A stretch of DNA of 50,887 bases. Source: Cyclobacteriaceae bacterium. Lineage in GTDB: Bacteria; Bacteroidota; Bacteroidia; Cytophagales; Cyclobacteriaceae. Shown here one piece after another: positions 95 to 29,481 of this stretch (the stretch's first letter is position 1; each line of letters opens with the position of its first letter). Made by a program: the position numbers and the translations under genes. The stretch is from contig CANGZP010000008.1 of assembly GCA_947458475.1 (NCBI GenBank), positions 1-50,887 on the forward strand, given 5' to 3'. The notes under the pieces are model-generated. The model worked only from the letters and a program-made list of their open reading frames with translations. It ran no database searches and was not told where the DNA came from.

Positions 95-3000
95 CTAATT
101 CTCCTCTTCCTTTCGAAGGTTTTTTGGCACCTTGGCCCTGCCGAATCCAATCGAACTTTTTACTCCAACAAAAGTAGCTTTCCACCAGGCATTGACCATA
201 GATCTTTGGGTATCCCGTAAACGGTAAATTTCTCTTTTGCGCAAGGAATTAGACCCTGCACCAGGATTGGATTTTTTAACCCAAAGGTTGGCCAAAAGGG
301 TATAGAACTTCAATTTTCCTTTGCCTTGCCCCAGGGTCAAAGTATCTAGAAACTGTAATTTTAACCCAGCATAGCCTAAGGCCATACTGCCAATTGCCTC
401 CTGTTCATTTAAGCGAAACTGCCAGATTCCTTGTGTCACTCCACCTGCCAAAGGCTTGACAAAAGCTGTTTTGGAAAGCAAGTCCTCCGCCTCTGCAAAG
501 GCAAAGCGATCTAGGCTAACCGAAACATCCATAGGGTAGTCTTTTTCAAAGTAGAGCTGACTAGTTAGGTTCAGCTGACTGCTATCGCTCACTTGCCCGG
601 ATAATCCCAAGTGAAACGAAGATACTGGATAGGCTTCTCCTTGTTTTCGAAGGAAAAATGGACTTGCATCCAATTGAACATTCTGGAAGGCAATGCTTCC
701 TGGTAGGCTTGACTTTTCTCCAAATTCCCAATACTCCAATCGACTATCCCTAAATTGGAAGGAAGAAAGGTCCATGGTAATCGGTGCATGCTCCATCCAG
801 TACTGTGGGAGTGGCTTGTAGCTATTCGGATCCATGGGCTTTCGTTTATCCCTGAAAAGAACAACATTTGCCCTATCCGCCTGCAAGAATTCCCCTTTGA
901 ACAATCCATCTTGAATTAGTTTTTGTGGTTCAATTCCATGAATTTCAAGTATCTCTACTCGCGCAGTGACCGCCTCACGCTGAAAAGGGAAGCTATTCAA
1001 ATACCCATAAATACCCAATCTTGGCCTGTAGTGAAGACCCTGGAGGTATAGGTTTTGATCCAAAAAACGAAGGCTATCTAACTGGAAGTAGTAGGCACTG
1101 TCCTGCACATAAGCCTTGTAATTTGCCAAGCTTAGCGATTTGGTTTTAGTCAATAGCTCTTTCCAGGTTGGGAGTTTCTCTATAGCCAAGAGATCTATAC
1201 CTAATTGCTCCAGGCGAGCATCTACTTTTGGGAAACTGAGATTGGATAAGGCTTGACCTCCTTTCCTGAAAAAATCAAACTTTCCATTTTCCAGTACCAA
1301 GTCCCCAAGCACTAGGGATTGAATTACCCCTTCTTTGGTTTTTTTAATGCTCTCAAAACCTACTTGGCTAGGGGTATTCAAACTATCCAGGTTGATGGAA
1401 AATACAGGGTTTTCAACGCGCACTTCGCGTAAGTCGACCTTTTTAGTAGTCAAAATATCAAGCAGACTATTCTTTTTGAGGACAACGCGCTCAATTTTCC
1501 CATCAAAAATGGGCTTGCCAGGCATTCCCATCTGGTTTTTTGGATGGATGCTCAAGCCTGAAAAAACCAATTCTTCTAAATCCTCGCCAAAGCCAAACAC
1601 CTCAAATTTTAATGTATGGACACTGTCTGGAAGGGCAAATTCAAAATTACTTAGCCCTAAATTAATCCCTTGATAGGTTTTGGTAAGGTCTTGCGTACGG
1701 ACGCGCAGGCTATCCAAATCAAACTGGGTGATGTTAAGCCCAAAACCTGTTTTAATTGCCTTTGTAGATTGATTTTGGTCCAAATAGTTGAGCTGCAAGG
1801 TAGCATTGCTGGTCGTAATCGTGTCAATGTGCACTTGCTCGACTGCTCGCTGTAGCGCAAGATTTCTAGCGCGACGAGTCGTTTTATCCGAAGCGGCAAT
1901 TTGACGATCTAGCCCAACGGCTAGTTCTCCCCCATCAATTTCAAGTTTTTCAAGGTTGAGCACATTGTCAAAAATGAAGGCTTCCATATTGACTCCACGA
2001 AGGGCAACCTTCGGAAAGTTGAACCCAAGAGCAAGTCGTTGATTTCCTACTTTTCCTGGGAGCAGCCTCAAATTTTCAAAATCCAAGGTTCGGGTCCTGG
2101 AGTTGTAGTTGAGGTAATCCGTATCCACCAAGTACTTGCCTCCAGCCAAACTAAACGAATAGGAGTTGAAGGTCAAATTAACCTCATCTGAAAACAGGGT
2201 TCGGTCATCATTTACAAGATCATTTTCTTGTATGGAGAAATTTTTAAGGGTTAGAAAAAGCTTGTCCTCCTCAAACCTGGTGACCGCTTCTTTCACTTTA
2301 TTCTCGTAGCGGATTTTCGCATTAGCGATCCGAGCAGAGTTTACCTGAATCGTTTTAAAATACCCAAGCAGAAGATCCTTTAAATCTGCCGCGGACTGCA
2401 GGGCATTTTGAGAAGCTTTACTTTCCTTGGATCGGTAGGTGGACCAGAAAAAGATTGGCGCATCCAATTGCAGGTGGTTTAAGTGCAAGCGCTGGTCAAA
2501 TAAAGCTTCCTTAAATCCGATACCCTCAGCTCGAAATAGCGGAATATTAAAATCCACTGCAGAAGTTCTCCCGAGCGCCTGCAACTGTTCTCGCACCTGA
2601 GAAGGTTCTGCTGGCTGTATGCTCAGATTTTTAATTTCTAACCGCTCTTTTTTAGAATTGATGGTGAGTTCTTCGGCTAAAAATTCATGGAGGTTGTCCC
2701 GTAGTTTTAGACGGTAATCGAATAGGGTCAACTTGATCTCCTGAAACTGAAATTGTTCTTGAAATGGCAACAAAATGCTAGGTTGAACCTTCAGATTTTC
2801 AAGTTCAACACTGTAAGTTCCAAGTTCCAAATCCTTACTTTTTTGACCAGATTCCTCTTTGAACAGTAATTCACCCTCGGTAATTGTGAGGGTTTGAATG
2901 GCTACTTCATCAATCAAACCTGAGAGTAGGGCTATGAAAGCTGAATTCCTGACTTTGGAATTTTGAGAATTAGTTTCGCGAATCTCTAATTTGGGCTGAA

Positions 3001-4459
3001 GCAGGGATAGCGTCTCAATTTCCAAATCTCCTTGGCGGTACCACTTTTTCAAATCCACATTCTCAAAGGTAAATTCCGCCAGGTCCAATCGATAGGTGGG
3101 CTGAGCGGAGCCCTTAAATGCAGCAGTTGACGGAGGTGATAACTTGAGGTTTGTGCCCGTTAATTCATTTTTAAATGTAGAAGCTTCCAACTTTTCCCCA
3201 GACAGCAGGTGTGTACCTCCAGAAAGAAAGACCTGGGCTTTTCCAATTTTCATGGAAGCGTCCGAACCATAGAAAAATTGGCCCCTTCGCTTTAGGCTAT
3301 CCTCCCCTAAGTAGAAATCGACCATATTCAAATCCAGTTGCTCCAACTGGATCCTGTTGCTCAGTGAATCTTCTTTCGCTCTCTTTAAAAAGCTTGCCCC
3401 TTGGATGGATAATTCTTTAATGGAAAATTCGTTCAATTTCCCACGGATAAATGCGTGTAAATCTGCTTCAGGTCCTGTTGAGGAGTATTTAATGGAAGAT
3501 TGAATCACTTCTATCCGCGGAGCTTTGAGTTTAAGCTCCTCAATGGCCAGCGTAGAAGACCTAAATGCTTGGTTCAAATCGACCTGACCAATATGTAGCT
3601 CGGCTAAATCTAAAGCATAGTAGGTGGTACTTTCTTTGCTTAGATCAGGTACCAAGGTAAATTTCTGAAGGTCTATCGTTTGCTCCAAGGAGGAGAGAAA
3701 GACACGGTCTGAGGTTATTCGATGGACTCCATCTGGCAAACTGAATGTGGCTTCTTCCAATTCAAATTCGAAGCCACGCGCATTGAATGGGGTTTGCCAG
3801 GATTGATTTGGAATCCAATGCAGGTCCAAGGCTTTGAAAGACGCGTCTTTAGCGAGAAGCTCGTTTTGGCTTAAAAAATTAAGAAAGAATACTTGGGCAT
3901 GATCCACTACTAAACTCCCAACAGTTACAGAAGAAAACGGTAGCCGTCGCAGACTTTTCTTCAATTCGCTTTCCAACAGAACAATTGGAGATTTATTCCT
4001 AGAAAGATTGCCTTCTTCTGGCTTGCTGTAGGAGAATTTGGGGCTATCTAATACTTGAAAATTAGGGCCGTCTAACCTGATTTGATGAAAATAAAGCTCC
4101 TGATCCCAAATTCCATACCAAAGACCCGTAAAGGATAGTTCATCCAGTGTAAGTTCAAACAAGACCTGTTCAGCAGTCCCCTTCTCAGGATGAACAGGCC
4201 TCATTACAATGCCGTCTAGGAAAATTCCTCTTCGAATAAGGGAAAGGTGCACCCGATTGAACTCAAGTTCGTACACCCCATTCACCGATTCATTCACCCG
4301 CTTTCGAATCAAGCTTCCTAAAAAAATATTTGCTCCAAAATAAAAGACAAACTCAAGGAAAAGTATTACCAGAAAGGATATCCCTGCTATTCTAAGCCAT
4401 TTTTTTCTGGAGGCAGACCCCCTTTTGGGTTTTTCCTTAGAATTAGACGTTAGAGACAT
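95..4459 (-). CDS. Giant AsmA-like membrane-anchored envelope protein
   Basis: About 1454 residues. A basic N-terminus (roughly residues 10-22) precedes one hydrophobic segment (WLRIAGISFLVILFLEFVF), so the protein is a single-pass inner-membrane protein with nearly all its mass in the periplasm. The rest is rich in alternating beta-strand patterns and recurring short phrases such as LSIQPA, LRLLPG and LSIHPK. This resembles the repetitive beta-groove of the AsmA/TamB/DUF748 class, which bridges the envelope and is implicated in lipid transport or outer-membrane homeostasis. The reading frame continues upstream to 4519, but those 20 codons run through a terminator hairpin, so ATG at 4459 is the sensible start. 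It is followed by the terminator at 40-72 and appears monocistronic. Family assignment is by general architecture, not a specific motif, and the exact function is unknown. Confidence 0.7.
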   Translation of the reverse strand: MSLTSNSKEKPKRGSASRKKWLRIAGISFLVILFLEFVFYFGANIFLGSLIRKRVNESVNGVYELEFNRVHLSLIRRGIFLDGIVMRPVHPEKGTAEQVLFELTLDELSFTGLWYGIWDQELYFHQIRLDGPNFQVLDSPKFSYSKPEEGNLSRNKSPIVLLESELKKSLRRLPFSSVTVGSLVVDHAQVFFLNFLSQNELLAKDASFKALDLHWIPNQSWQTPFNARGFEFELEEATFSLPDGVHRITSDRVFLSSLEQTIDLQKFTLVPDLSKESTTYYALDLAELHIGQVDLNQAFRSSTLAIEELKLKAPRIEVIQSSIKYSSTGPEADLHAFIRGKLNEFSIKELSIQGASFLKRAKEDSLSNRIQLEQLDLNMVDFYLGEDSLKRRGQFFYGSDASMKIGKAQVFLSGGTHLLSGEKLEASTFKNELTGTNLKLSPPSTAAFKGSAQPTYRLDLAEFTFENVDLKKWYRQGDLEIETLSLLQPKLEIRETNSQNSKVRNSAFIALLSGLIDEVAIQTLTITEGELLFKEESGQKSKDLELGTYSVELENLKVQPSILLPFQEQFQFQEIKLTLFDYRLKLRDNLHEFLAEELTINSKKERLEIKNLSIQPAEPSQVREQLQALGRTSAVDFNIPLFRAEGIGFKEALFDQRLHLNHLQLDAPIFFWSTYRSKESKASQNALQSAADLKDLLLGYFKTIQVNSARIANAKIRYENKVKEAVTRFEEDKLFLTLKNFSIQENDLVNDDRTLFSDEVNLTFNSYSFSLAGGKYLVDTDYLNYNSRTRTLDFENLRLLPGKVGNQRLALGFNFPKVALRGVNMEAFIFDNVLNLEKLEIDGGELAVGLDRQIAASDKTTRRARNLALQRAVEQVHIDTITTSNATLQLNYLDQNQSTKAIKTGFGLNITQFDLDSLRVRTQDLTKTYQGINLGLSNFEFALPDSVHTLKFEVFGFGEDLEELVFSGLSIHPKNQMGMPGKPIFDGKIERVVLKKNSLLDILTTKKVDLREVRVENPVFSINLDSLNTPSQVGFESIKKTKEGVIQSLVLGDLVLENGKFDFFRKGGQALSNLSFPKVDARLEQLGIDLLAIEKLPTWKELLTKTKSLSLANYKAYVQDSAYYFQLDSLRFLDQNLYLQGLHYRPRLGIYGYLNSFPFQREAVTARVEILEIHGIEPQKLIQDGLFKGEFLQADRANVVLFRDKRKPMDPNSYKPLPQYWMEHAPITMDLSSFQFRDSRLEYWEFGEKSSLPGSIAFQNVQLDASPFFLRKQGEAYPVSSFHLGLSGQVSDSSQLNLTSQLYFEKDYPMDVSVSLDRFAFAEAEDLLSKTAFVKPLAGGVTQGIWQFRLNEQEAIGSMALGYAGLKLQFLDTLTLGQGKGKLKFYTLLANLWVKKSNPGAGSNSLRKREIYRLRDTQRSMVNAWWKATFVGVKSSIGFGRAKVPKNLRKEEEN

Positions 4460-4505
4460 ACAAAAATAATAGGAGTGAAAGATACCAAACTTATTTCCGT
4501 ATACG

Positions 4506-4533
4506 AAAAAAGCAGCCATCTGGCTGCTTTTTT
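4506..4533 (-). terminator. Intrinsic terminator of tRNA-like RNA A
   Basis: A 7-bp stem (4512-4518 with 4521-4527) closes a 2-nt loop and has six A/T on each side. On the minus strand it lies 3-5 nt beyond the tRNA-like 3' end and before the start of the AsmA-like gene, so it most naturally ends the small RNA. Confidence 0.85.
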
Positions 4534-4535
4534 AA

Positions 4536-4726
4536 TGCTGTAGGGGAAGGATTCGAACCTCCACGCGGCAGTTAGGCATGAACTTTTGAAACATGCTTTA
4601 TCCCATTCCGATCTTTACGACCGGCATCCCCACCCCCGAGACAGGAGGGCTTGTCTGCCAATTTCAACACCCTACAAGATAGATTTAAAGCGGATAGTCG
4701 CTTTTGCGTGAGCCTTAAACTCAACA
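4536..4726 (-). ncRNA. tRNA-like small RNA A
   Basis: Read on the minus strand, 4676-4539 folds as an oversized class II tRNA. It has a perfect 7-bp acceptor (TGTAGGG with CCCTACA). The D-arm is leucine-like, TTG/CAA around AAATTGGCAGA, with the GG pair. The 5-bp anticodon stem CCCTC/GGGGG carries loop CTGTCTC (U33 present, anticodon GTC, but T at position 37). The variable region is about 70 nt (4632-4563) and has two internal hairpins. The T-arm is GGAGG-TTCGAAT-CCTTC. A leader of about 50 nt (4726-4677) starts with TGTTG, which could also pair with CAGCA at the 3' end. A -7-like box lies upstream and an intrinsic terminator immediately downstream. CCA is not encoded. No ordinary tRNA has a 70-nt variable arm, and a GTC (Asp) anticodon on a Leu-like body is contradictory. 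I therefore call it a tRNA-like ncRNA rather than a tRNA. It is homologous to RNA B. Confidence 0.7.
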
Positions 4727-4935: not shown

Positions 4936-4964
4936 AAAACCATGAAAAAAATTCATGGTTTTAG
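4933..4964 (-). terminator. Intrinsic terminator of tRNA-like RNA B
   Basis: CCATGAA (4940-4946) pairs with TTCATGG (4952-4958), followed on the minus strand by seven Ts. It lies about 30 nt after the 3' end of RNA B, with no protein gene nearby that it could serve. This argues that RNA B is transcribed on its own. Confidence 0.85.
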
Positions 4965-4991
4965 TCAATTAACAATAAACCCAAAATAACC

Positions 4992-5128
4992 TGTTGTAAG
5001 AGAAGGAGTTGAACCTTCAAAGTAACAAACACAAAAGATTTCTATTTGTTTACTTTTCCTGAATTGACTGCTTTTTTGTCAATTATTTTTTGCCCTACAA
5101 AATCTGTTGACGTCCTAAAACTACAACA
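4992..5128 (-). ncRNA. tRNA-like small RNA B, paralogue of RNA A
   Basis: The 3' part carries a perfect T-arm, GAAGG-TTCAACT-CCTTC (5018-5002), with the acceptor-like strand TCTTACA directly behind it (5001-4995). TCTTACA pairs with TGTAGGG at 5099-5093 (two G-U pairs), giving a 105-nt core. Overlapping it, TACAACA (4998-4992) pairs perfectly with TGTTGTA at the RNA 5' end (5128-5122). The two closures exclude each other. Internally there are a 7-bp hairpin (AATTGAC/GTCAATT) and a long stem of about 11 bp with one bulge (AAAGTAA/TTACTTT plus CAAA/TTTG), placed where a variable arm would be. No D-arm or decodable anticodon loop is visible. Homology to RNA A shows in the promoter-proximal 5' end, in TTGTAGGG, and in the T-arm with its trailer. 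It is a diverged or degenerate tRNA-like RNA; I do not recognise the family. Confidence 0.65.
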
Positions 5129-5347: not shown

Positions 5348-6385
5348 TCAGTCTACCTGCACATACTGCTCCCATTTCTGCAAGACCGTTGAAAAATCTG
5401 CTGGCAGCGGCGCCTCAAAGTAGAGGTTTTTCTTCGTGATTGGGTGCACAAATCCCAAACTCATCGCATGCAACGCTTGCCTCGGCATTGCATCAAAACA
5501 ATTGCTGATAAAGCTCTTGTATTTCGCAAATTGAGTCCCCTTTCGAATCTTATCTCCGCCGTACATCGCGTCATTGAATAGCGGATGTCCTAAAAATTTA
5601 AAGTGCGCACGAATCTGGTGCGTTCTCCCTGTTTCCAAGGTACACTGCACCAACGAAACATACCGAAGACGCTTCAACACCTTCCAATGCGTAATGGCAT
5701 GCTTGCCTTGACTGCCATCCGGAAATACTTCCATTACCTTGCGGTCTTTGGCACTGCGTCCCACATGCCCTACGATAGTGCCTTCATCCGCTTCTGGCTC
5801 ACCCCAAACCAAGGCCAAATAGGTGCGCTGAATGGTGTGGTAAAAAAATTGAGCCGCCAATGGCGCCATGGTCTCCTCTGTTTTGGCAATCACCAACAAG
5901 CCCGAAGTATCTTTGTCAATCCGATGAACCAAACCTGGGCGACCTACATTGCCTTTCATTTCCGGAAGGTTCTGAAAATGATACACCAGCCCATTCACCA
6001 AGGTTCCAGACCAATTGCCATGAGCCGGATGCACAACCATTCCTGGAGGTTTATTGACCACCAAAAGATCCGTATCCTCATAAACAATGTCCAAAGCGAT
6101 ATTCTCCGAAATGACCTCGGTATCACGCGGAGGCTTCTCTAGGAGCACTCGAATGTCATCTAAGCCTTTGATCTTGTAATTGGACTTCACCGAATGCCCA
6201 TTGACCTGAACGCCTCCCGAATCAATCGTCTGCTGCACCTTGTTGCGCGTCGCATTCGCAATTCGCTCCGTTAAAAATTTGTCAATCCGAACTGAAGATT
6301 GACCCTTGTCGACCAAAATACGATGGTGCTCATACAAGGCTAACTCATCCTCTTCAAATTCTTCTTCCAGGTGCTGTTCGCTCAT
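5348..6385 (-). CDS. rluD: RluA/RluD-family 23S rRNA pseudouridine synthase
   Basis: 345 residues. It isomerises uridines to pseudouridine in large-subunit rRNA. An S4-like RNA-binding domain (about residues 32-80, RIDKFLTERI...) follows an acidic leader of about 22 residues. The catalytic domain carries the family signature GLVHRIDKDTSGLLV, in which the first Asp (about D157) is the nucleophile. The motif RTHQIRAHF near residue 255 is also typical. Architecture and length fit RluD (helix 69 of 23S rRNA) better than RluA or RluC, though exact site specificity cannot be read from sequence alone. The start is close to a TATTTTTG box, so its mRNA may have almost no leader. It is divergent from the PLP enzyme gene across a 47-bp spacer. 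Confidence 0.9.
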   Translation of the reverse strand: MSEQHLEEEFEEDELALYEHHRILVDKGQSSVRIDKFLTERIANATRNKVQQTIDSGGVQVNGHSVKSNYKIKGLDDIRVLLEKPPRDTEVISENIALDIVYEDTDLLVVNKPPGMVVHPAHGNWSGTLVNGLVYHFQNLPEMKGNVGRPGLVHRIDKDTSGLLVIAKTEETMAPLAAQFFYHTIQRTYLALVWGEPEADEGTIVGHVGRSAKDRKVMEVFPDGSQGKHAITHWKVLKRLRYVSLVQCTLETGRTHQIRAHFKFLGHPLFNDAMYGGDKIRKGTQFAKYKSFISNCFDAMPRQALHAMSLGFVHPITKKNLYFEAPLPADFSTVLQKWEQYVQVD

Positions 6386-27726: not shown

Positions 27727-29481
27727 TTATTTTTTCAAAGCTACCCGAATGGATAATTCCTCCAACTGTTCATCAGCCAAGGTGCTCGGTGAATCAATCA
27801 TTACGTCTCTACCCGAATTGTTTTTAGGGAAGGCAATGTAATCTCGAATGGAGTCTGAACCTCCAAAAATGGCACAAAGTCGATCGAATCCAAAGGCAAT
27901 CCCTCCGTGTGGAGGAGCACCAAATTCAAAGGCCTCCAACAAAAATCCAAATTGCTTTTGCGCTTCCTCCTCGGTAAATCCAAGGTGCGTGAACATCAGC
28001 TGCTGCGTAGCGCGATCGTGGATACGGATGGATCCTCCACCTACTTCTACCCCATTGATCACTAAATCATAGGCATTGGCACGCACTGCTCCCGGATCAG
28101 ACTCCAGCAAGGGGATATCTTCTCGCTTGGGAGAGGTGAAGGGATGGTGCATGGCATGGAAACGCTGAGATTCCTCATCCCATTCCAAAAGCGGGAAGTC
28201 CACTACCCAAAGCGGCACAAATACAGATCGGTCTCTCAATCCTAGCTCTTCACCCATTTTTAGGCGTAACTCGGAGAGTTGCTTGCGCGTGGATTTTTCA
28301 TCGCCGCTGAGGACCAAGAGCAAATCTCCAGGCGCAGCGCCGCAGGCATCTGCCCAAGACTTCAATTGTTCTTGCGAATAAAATTTATCTACACTGGACT
28401 TGAGTACACCATCTTGTTGGTAGCGTACATAGATCAATCCTTTAGCACCAATTTGTGGTCGCTTTACCCATTCAGTCAACTCATCCAGCTGCTTACGAGT
28501 ATATTCTCCAGCACCTTTGGCGCAGATCCCTAGCGCAATTTCCGCTTGATCAATGACCGCAAAGCCAGCCCCTTTGGCAAGGGCAGTCAGGTCCACAAAT
28601 TTCATGTCAAACCGCAAATCAGGTTTGTCATTGCCATAGAATTTCATGGCATCGGCATAGGTCAGGTGAGGAACATGGCCTAGATCCACTCCTTTTACGG
28701 ATTGAAATAGGTGTTTGACGAGTCCTTCAAAGGTATGGAGGATGTCTTCCTGATTGACGAAGGCCATTTCACAGTCTATCTGCGTAAATTCCGGCTGACG
28801 GTCTGCACGCAAATCCTCATCACGGAAGCATTTGACAATTTGAAAATAGCGGTCAAAACCACTCACCATCAAGAGCTGCTTGAAGGTCTGTGGAGATTGT
28901 GGCAAAGCATAAAATTCGCCTGGATTCACACGGCTAGGTACCACAAAATCACGGGCACCCTCAGGAGTAGATTTAATCAAGACGGGAGTTTCTACTTCGA
29001 TAAACTGTTGCTTATCCATGTAAATCCGTGTTTCCTGCATCATGCGGTGACGGAGCTGTAGCTTTTCACGGATCACATTTCTACGAAGGTCTAGGTAACG
29101 GTAGCGCATGCGCAGCTCATCCCCACCATCCGTATCGTCTTCAATAATAAAGGGGGGCACCTTGGCGGCATTCAATACCGTAAGTTCCTCCACCTTGATT
29201 TCAATATCCCCAGTTGGCATTTTATCATTCTTGGCAGTTCGCTCCACCACCGTACCTGTAGCTTGCACCACAAATTCTCTTCCGAGCTGGGCTGCTTTTT
29301 CGAGTAGGCTTTTGTCAGTAGAACCTTCTTCAAAAATCAACTGGGTGAGCCCATAGCGGTCCCTCAAGTCTACCCAAATCAAGCCTCCTTTATTTCTAAC
29401 GCGCTGTACCCAGCCGGCCAAAGTGATTTGTTGATTGACATGATGAAGGCGTAGTTCGCCACAGGTATGCGTTCTTAACAT
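27727..29481 (-). CDS. aspS: Aspartyl-tRNA synthetase
   Basis: 584 residues, the bacterial-type length. The OB-fold anticodon-binding domain is at about 1-105 ([20 protein letters not shown]). The class II catalytic core includes motif 2 ([20 protein letters not shown]) and motif 3 ([16 protein letters not shown]). The GAD insertion domain characteristic of bacterial AspRS lies between them (about 290-410). It charges tRNA-Asp, with the downstream possibility of Asp-tRNA-Asn if the organism uses the indirect Asn pathway. The end LSIRVALKK is complete. It is monocistronic, with a TATCTTTG box 26 nt before the ATG. Confidence 0.98.

Follow-up and report, generated by a model that had tools for sequence, protein, structure and literature searches.

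The window analysed in this study, a stretch of 50,887 nucleotides from a bacterium of the family Cyclobacteriaceae, contains the gene of a small RNA that is built like a tRNA, and the question raised by this locus is what such an RNA could do for the cell when a single molecule unites an Asn-like acceptor, an Asp-like anticodon loop and a Leu-like D-arm. A sequence-only reading had proposed either a tRNA-mimicking, non-coding RNA of mixed identity or an unusual functional tRNA, and conservation in related genomes was set beforehand as one of the tests. The results described below agree with the former proposal, both in the mixture of identities and in the depth of conservation.

Structure of the RNA element

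The RNA proper lies on the minus strand at 4676..4537 and comprises 140 nt, from U1 (4676) through C74 (4537). The element had been announced at 4536-4726 with no strand given; it is present there, but that span is incorrect. The acceptor UGUAGGG/CCCUACA is a perfect helix of 7 bp (4676-4670 paired with 4545-4539, minus strand), in which U1-A72 corresponds to 4676/4539, and it is followed directly on its 3' side by G73 (4538) and C74 (4537). U8 separates the 5' strand of the acceptor from the D-stem. The D-arm, UUG-AAAUUGGCAGA-CAA (4667-4651, minus strand), has a 3-bp stem and a loop with GG, and it was assigned to the Leu type by alignment, covariation and comparison with native tRNA-Leu. The anticodon-like arm (4649-4633, minus strand) consists of the 5-bp stem CCCUC/GGGGG and the 7-nt loop CUGUCUC, with GUC at positions 34-36 and C38. 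It is followed by a variable region of exactly 70 nt (4632-4563, minus strand), whose base stem covaries in the family, although one of its pairs is mismatched in the window copy, and whose interior holds the motif GGAUAAA...CUAAC. The T-arm GGAGG-UUCGAAU-CCUUC (4562-4546, minus strand) was recognised from the sequence and the family alignment, and a hairpin with a T-run resembling an intrinsic terminator (4506..4529, minus strand), read by eye from the sequence, starts 7 nt beyond C74. Thus the parts named in the sequence-only reading, namely the perfect 7-bp acceptor, the Leu-like D-arm with GG, the 5-bp stem with U33 and GTC, the consensus T-arm, the 70-nt insertion at the position of the variable arm and the terminator near the 3' end, were all recovered, on the minus strand. 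The neighbours of the RNA in the window are a gene for an RluA-family pseudouridine synthase (5348-6385) and an open frame of 1474 aa (95-4519) with no Pfam or NCBIfam match.

Both a tRNA finder and Rfam miss this widespread tRNA-like family. ARAGORN found no tRNA gene and no tmRNA in the window, and none in 13 of 14 other loci; the only call, tRNA-Asp(atc), was made for a short form of the RNA in one genome (G070, locus L246). A search of the whole window against Rfam 15 gave no match at the gathering score, in agreement with the earlier reading, in which no named family was recognised, and at E values up to 10 it gave only sub-threshold matches. These included an 18-nt match of the T-arm to the tRNA model RF00005 (12 bits, with a cut-off of 29) and, for the tmRNA model, 5.8 bits over 11 nt. 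Although the acceptor and T-arm of tmRNA are tRNA-like as well, the RNA described here has complete D- and anticodon-like arms and no tag frame was recognised in it; the free variation of the arm's interior in length and sequence led to the rejection of a tmRNA or a hidden reading frame. The sequence GCCTAAC in the arm resembles integron core sites, and this reading was likewise rejected because it is mainly CTAA(C) that is conserved and the RNA covaries. No description of the RNA was found among the listed results of searches of open-licence papers.

Conservation, covariation and distribution

The single-sequence folding energy of the window RNA is unremarkable (z -0.65, with 52 of 200 shuffles as good), and the proof that this is a covarying RNA family and not a chance resemblance lies in comparative data rather than in folding energy. 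In a DNA search of 97 genomes, comprising its own and those of relatives, matches with E <= 1e-20 were obtained in 56 of the 58 other genomes of the genus, the two exceptions (G012 and G050) both being incomplete; within the genus, two copies of the RNA separated by about 500 bp are frequent, and matches, some of them weak, extended to many genomes from other families. From 42 non-redundant elements, thinned for near-redundancy, 33 representatives were aligned (alignment A1); L079, whose T-arm is missing at a contig end, was among the rows left out. Among 24 pairs of the cloverleaf, 99.1% of 792 cells were paired and 14 pairs showed two-sided changes, and neither value was reached in any of 500 shuffles. 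All five helices are backed by covariation or invariance, which corresponds to a cloverleaf with conserved D/T contacts, and the insertion forms a variable arm of the class II kind, in which a 4-bp stem at the base is conserved. The total length of the aligned elements is 109-170 nt. Inside the otherwise freely varying arm the motif GGAUAAA...CUAAC is near-constant.

With a covariance model (R1), 296 genomes of the phylum were searched, 11 candidates being scored per genome under strict filters, so that misses are possible. R1 matched the window element with 115.4 bits (E 4.3e-31) and gave matches of at least 87 bits in 30 of the 296 genomes. Two further genomes gave intermediate matches, G070 with 70.2 bits and G185 with 67.3 bits; with the filters off, the G185 element reached 107.8 bits, that is, it had been under-scored in the filtered run. 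The listed matches below these two, at most 62.7 bits and of 77-88 nt or similar, are presumably tRNA-Leu, as five native tRNA-Leu genes of one genome of the same genus scored 44.9-54.5 bits with R1. Counting the 30 strong matches, G185 and G070, the RNA was found in 32 of the 296 genomes, hereafter the carriers. The form in G070 (L246:738-814, minus strand) is only 77 nt long, with the loop CUAUCUC, and lacks the long variable arm, which can therefore be dispensed with; this genome has AsnA and no GlnRS over the cut-off. A pattern scan of named genomes, from which the 80 listed of at least 119 stretches were used, placed the RNA in, among others, Algoriphagus, Cyclobacterium, Echinicola, Belliella, Dyadobacter, Spirosoma, Emticicia, Fulvivirga, Chitinophaga, Pedobacter, Saprospiraceae and Ignavibacteria. 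The family, carried by many environmental Bacteroidota, spans the Bacteroidia and occurs also in Ignavibacteria, and the conservation looked for in related genomes was borne out by the DNA search, the R1 survey and the pattern scan. Tandem copies were observed in some genomes, for instance six in G091 (L072 831-1946) and five in Phaeodactylibacter xiamenensis (L177 312-1053).

The window also contains a degenerate tRNA-like element at 4993..5099 on the minus strand (R1 27.7 bits, E 3.1e-6; fold z -2.53), with eight orthologues and 91-92% identity in five near relatives. It keeps the acceptor and the T-arm and lacks both G73 and the Asp-type loop. In the pairing test 88.5% of its cells were paired, a value as high being found in 2 of 500 shuffles; its covariation score was reached by none of 500 shuffles, and two further measures by 33 and 129 of 500. 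This element is probably the decayed upstream copy of the RNA pair of the genus, and possibly it has another function. Just 3' of it, a stretch of about 33 nt (AGGTTATTTTGGGTTTATTGTTAATTGACTAAA, 4960-4992, minus strand) is near-identical to a stretch that follows one RNA copy in Algoriphagus, Cyclobacterium, Echinicola and Belliella; it is more conserved than expected of a spacer and survives in the window despite the decay of the RNA copy. Elsewhere in the genus, two weak tRNA-like matches (25.1 and 17.4 bits) lie beside the tRNA-Asp gene pair of G008 (G008:C1:1758846-1759185, L294).

Identity positions

In all 33 elements of A1, U1-A72, G2-C71, G73, C74, C32, U35, C36 and C38 are invariant. 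G34 is found in 28 of them, with A or C in the other 5, and U33 in 27, being replaced in 6 and kept in the window copy. A second set (A2) of 117 rows was reduced to 113 by dropping two that were cut off (L185:1-78 and L183:3239-3332) and two that were weak (L153:304-415 and L194:5760-5817), leaving 109 distinct elements. Here U1-A72 was found in 108 of 109, and G2-C71, G73 and C74 in every one; U33 was present in 91 and replaced in 18, and the loop of this set says little in itself since the search pattern fixed GTCTC.

For comparison, native tRNA genes were read with ARAGORN in a genome of the same genus that consists of one contig (G008). Its tRNA-Asp, present in two gene copies, has the loop CUGUCAC, G1 and G73; its Leu tRNAs have G1 and A73; its tRNA-Asn has U1-A72 and G73, and its tRNA-Gln has U1-A72 but A73. 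Of the native tRNAs read there, tRNA-Asn alone shares with the RNA the combination of U1-A72 and G73. The leucine discriminator A73 is thus absent from the family, every A1 element having G73.

In a review, G73, G34, U35, C36 and C38 are given as the strong aspartate determinants, G1-C72 as strictly conserved in bacterial tRNA-Asp and crucial for its identity, and G2-C71 as crucial too, and it is stated there that U1-A72 confers amidation while G1-C72 and U20a prevent it (PMC9976931). Recognition of U1-A72 by GatCAB is likewise described in PMC4206432. The window copy carries all five strong determinants, and the G1-C72 pair of tRNA-Asp is absent from the family, being replaced by U1-A72 throughout A1. 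By its sequence, the RNA unites the strong aspartate determinants with the amidation signal for GatCAB, and aspartate charging could be weak as a consequence of U1-A72 standing in place of G1-C72.

The AsnC-type neighbour

A gene of about 155-165 codons adjoins the RNA in many other families. Of the 80 listed of at least 119 named loci, 46 have an AsnC-type gene adjacent to the RNA; 45 of these were scored as divergent (head-to-head), one as convergent and none as tandem. The single convergent score (L170) was given because the stop-to-stop frame on the other strand overlaps the RNA, and in the 45 divergent loci the gap between the RNA and the stop-to-stop frame is 78-238 nt. This neighbour is shared by loci of Bacteroidia and Ignavibacteria. 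In the remaining 34 of the 80 loci, some of which have little upstream sequence and which include the genus of the window, the gene is not adjacent; in the genome of the window, an AsnC-type gene is found on another contig (G000:C5). Four neighbour proteins scored 161.2-173.1 bits with the NCBIfam AsnC model and 67.7-78.8 with the next families; they carry Pfam AsnC domains, and the best PDB match of one of them is AsnC (2cg4). Their scores lie below the equivalog cut-off of 227, so they are called AsnC-type here rather than proven AsnC. In E. coli, the asparagine synthetase gene asnA lies next to asnC and is under the control of AsnC. The flank opposite the AsnC-type gene varies between loci, and no recurrent transferase gene was seen beside the RNA among the flanks listed.

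The box TANNTTTG, which matches the Bacteroidetes promoter element, was found 38-55 nt upstream of 27 of 111 elements, compared with a mean of 1.35 and a maximum of 6 in shuffled sequences, where the position was chosen after the counts had been seen and the shuffles were of mononucleotides only. Its distance from the RNA suggests that there is a short leader, which could be cleaved off by RNase P. Within the final 30 nt before the RNA no such box stands out (2 of 113 elements, shuffled mean 1.3). By a crude test for a hairpin followed by T residues, 27 of 113 elements have a terminator no more than 60 nt away.

Co-occurrence with GatCAB and the synthetases

The 296 genomes were also searched for the AsnC-type protein (model A3), AsnA, AsnB and GatB, and the counts that follow ignore kinship. 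With A3, all 32 carriers scored at least 223 bits, a line drawn after the gap had been seen, and because A3 was built from AsnC proteins beside the RNA, the high scores of carriers arise partly by construction. Among the 264 RNA-negative genomes only G098 and G215 reached this value, the next best scoring 194.3 bits. GatB was found in all 32 carriers and in 215 of the 264 RNA-negative genomes. Within the class of the window (73 genomes), the RNA was present in 30 of 33 genomes with GatB and in none of 40 without it (Fisher 2e-17, ignoring kinship). The three genomes of the class with GatB in which the RNA was not detected are G137, G247 and G293; in the latter two, which belong to one family (f26), AsnRS and GlnRS are present and the GatB scores are below those of carriers. 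In G098 and G215 the AsnC-type gene is kept and both the RNA and GatB are missing; their family (f23) includes two further genera in which the RNA and GatB are both present. In another family (f24), neither the RNA nor GatB nor an A3 match was found in two genera (g39 and g53). From this pattern we infer that the RNA and GatB were lost jointly in at least two families.

For the synthetases, a selection of 41 genomes was surveyed, made up of all 32 carriers and 9 further genomes. AsnRS was over the cut-off in all 41 and GlnRS in 35, the exceptions being five carriers (G363, G070, G087, G365 and G373) and G137; one carrier also has an extra AsnRS-related frame of 346 aa (G087:C2:595933-596853; 167.9 bits, under the cut-off). 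AsnRS, GlnRS and GatB occur together in 27 of the 32 carriers, so that without the RNA GatCAB would lack an obvious substrate there. A survey described in PMC4206432 also lists bacteria, including Bacteroidetes, in which GatCAB is retained although AsnRS and GlnRS are both present; in that survey its role is left open, and tRNA-Asn as a substrate or a vestigial GatCAB are considered as explanations.

An archaeal-type nondiscriminating AspRS was found in none of the 41 genomes tested. The window itself contains aspS (27727..29481, minus strand), encoding a bacterial-type aspartyl-tRNA synthetase of 584 aa (best E 4.4e-275 to aspartyl-tRNA synthetases in PDB); its product is proposed as the charging enzyme, and it shares the window by coincidence of position. 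In 21 AspRS sequences, the residue aligned with E. coli L30, numbered as in the PDB chains, is K in 7, L in 10 and F in 4, and never His, with K, L or F found in carriers and GatB-less genomes alike. A His at the equivalent of this residue marks nondiscriminating AspRS; a paper on this marker was not found in the literature searched. Since genomes that lack GatB should need a discriminating AspRS, the AspRS of carriers is probably discriminating too.

Neither asparagine synthetase accounts for the distribution of the RNA. AsnA was rejected as an explanation, being present in only 13 of 296 genomes and in 4 of 32 carriers (G363, G070, G087 and G255), and the AsnB family was rejected as too widespread, with a match in 295 of 296 genomes, 176 of them over the cut-off and most carriers included. 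AsnA is absent, and no AsnB-family match is stronger than 1.9e-64, in five genomes: that of the window (G000, 79% complete) and the near-complete carriers G068, G086, G243 and G359; by the same measure only G113 lacks both among the 40 genomes of the class without GatB.

Proposed role and alternatives

The aspartate marks, the mark for conversion to asparagine and the AsnC-type neighbour together suggest a tRNA that makes an amino acid rather than reading the code. The balance of these data tips somewhat towards a tRNA mimic that is dedicated to the tRNA-dependent synthesis of asparagine and probably does not decode; it would be charged by AspRS, amidated by GatCAB and controlled by AsnC. RNase P would first remove the 5' leader, and CCA would be completed. 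The bacterial-type AspRS, seemingly unable to use tRNA-Asn, would then attach aspartate, because the loop reads GUC with C38 and the discriminator is G73, and GatCAB would turn Asp-RNA into Asn-RNA because of U1-A72, sparing the true tRNA-Asp with its G1-C72. Asn-RNA may be kept off Asp codons by its enlarged arm and, in some species, by the loss of U33, and the asparagine, released or used from the RNA, would serve metabolism, with the AsnC-type regulator sensing asparagine and controlling the RNA as AsnC does asnA in E. coli. The stronger proposal, that the RNA gene does the job of an asparagine synthetase as a reusable platform off the ribosome, combined with a discriminating AspRS, GatCAB and an asparagine-sensing AsnC switch, we consider evenly poised. 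Transcription of the RNA, its charging and amidation, the fate of the asparagine and the exclusion from the ribosome are what we infer from sequence. Several findings count against the proposed role, namely the absence of G1-C72, the replacement of G34 in 5 of 33 elements, the 215 of 264 genomes that have GatB and no detected RNA, the presence of AsnA in 4 of 32 carriers and of AsnB matches in most, and the 34 of 80 listed loci in which AsnC is not adjacent.

A regulatory RNA, which would be bound or charged by AspRS and GatCAB and whose task would be to sense or titrate these enzymes, for example by informing the AsnC circuit of the balance between Asp and Asn, without making useful asparagine, would also fit the identity and co-occurrence data, and most carriers do have other possible asparagine synthetases. 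We consider this explanation rather unlikely, as a biosynthetic role is wanted in the four near-complete carriers that have neither AsnA nor a strong AsnB match, and a pure sensor need not be a substrate of GatCAB. Less probable still is that the charged Asp or Asn is passed to a non-ribosomal acceptor in the cell wall, a lipid or a peptide, as is the case for the non-translating tRNA-Gly of staphylococci. The non-decoding appearance of the RNA, with U33 replaced in 6 of 33 elements, and its being a dedicated RNA with its own regulator would suit such a donor, but a transferase gene does not recur among the flanks listed and the other flank varies.

A decoding tRNA for Asp codons, perhaps one inserting Asn under stress, has a small chance of being correct. 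Its acceptor, D/T contacts and GUC are all canonical and the short form in G070 was called tRNA-Asp(atc), but normal tRNA-Asp genes exist (two copies in G008) and the arm is long and variable. The replacement of U33, seen in 6 of 33 elements and in 18 of 109, makes the unusual functional tRNA of the sequence-only reading, taken in the decoding sense, the less likely of its two proposals. It is very improbable that GatCAB acts on native tRNA-Asn through a nondiscriminating bacterial-type AspRS, as in Bdellovibrio, with the RNA near AsnC serving an unrelated role. The tRNA-Asn of G008 does have U1-A72, and bacterial-type AspRS can be nondiscriminating according to PMC4206432, but the L30-aligned residue is K, L or F in carriers and GatB-less genomes alike (21 of 21 AspRS), and within the class gain or loss of the RNA goes with gain or loss of GatB. 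That the locus is a pseudogene, a mobile element or an attachment site without RNA function is hardly credible, for despite the tandem copies (such as the six in G091) and the decay of some copies (4993-5099 in the window), it is contradicted by the two-sided covariation in 14 of 24 pairs, reached in none of 500 shuffles, by the invariant identity positions and by the AsnC neighbour common to Bacteroidia and Ignavibacteria.

Comparison with known systems and significance

The dedicated mimic for asparagine synthesis, our preferred reading, combines features of several known systems. Its loop, CUGUCUC, is close to the CUGUCAC of tRNA-Asp, with which it also has G73 and G2-C71 in common, but it differs from tRNA-Asp in U1-A72, the Leu-type D-arm, an arm of tens of nucleotides and an inconstant U33. 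With class II tRNA-Leu it shares the D-arm sequence and the general layout, as reflected in the R1 scores of 44.9-54.5 bits for the native genes, whereas G73 instead of A73, an Asp-type loop, a far longer arm and scores of at least 87 bits set its members apart. The head-to-head arrangement of an AsnC-type gene with a gene proposed to make asparagine recalls the divergent asnC-asnA pair of E. coli, except that the partner here is an RNA gene and not a synthetase gene. Non-translating tRNAs are already known, and so is amidation on tRNA; a separate RNA built for amidation was not found in the literature searched. The indirect pathway to Asn-tRNA-Asn of Bdellovibrio bacteriovorus, as described in PMC4206432, likewise relies on AspRS, GatCAB and a U1-A72 acceptor, and also concerns organisms with AsnRS and GlnRS; its substrate, however, is the decoding tRNA-Asn, whereas a separate RNA with an Asp-type loop and a discriminating AspRS is proposed here.

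If this proposal is true, it would explain why many Bacteroidota retain GatCAB alongside AsnRS and GlnRS, and a dedicated RNA substrate would settle, for a large part of the phylum, the GatCAB question as it is put in PMC4206432. It would also add an RNA whose task is the synthesis of an amino acid and not decoding.
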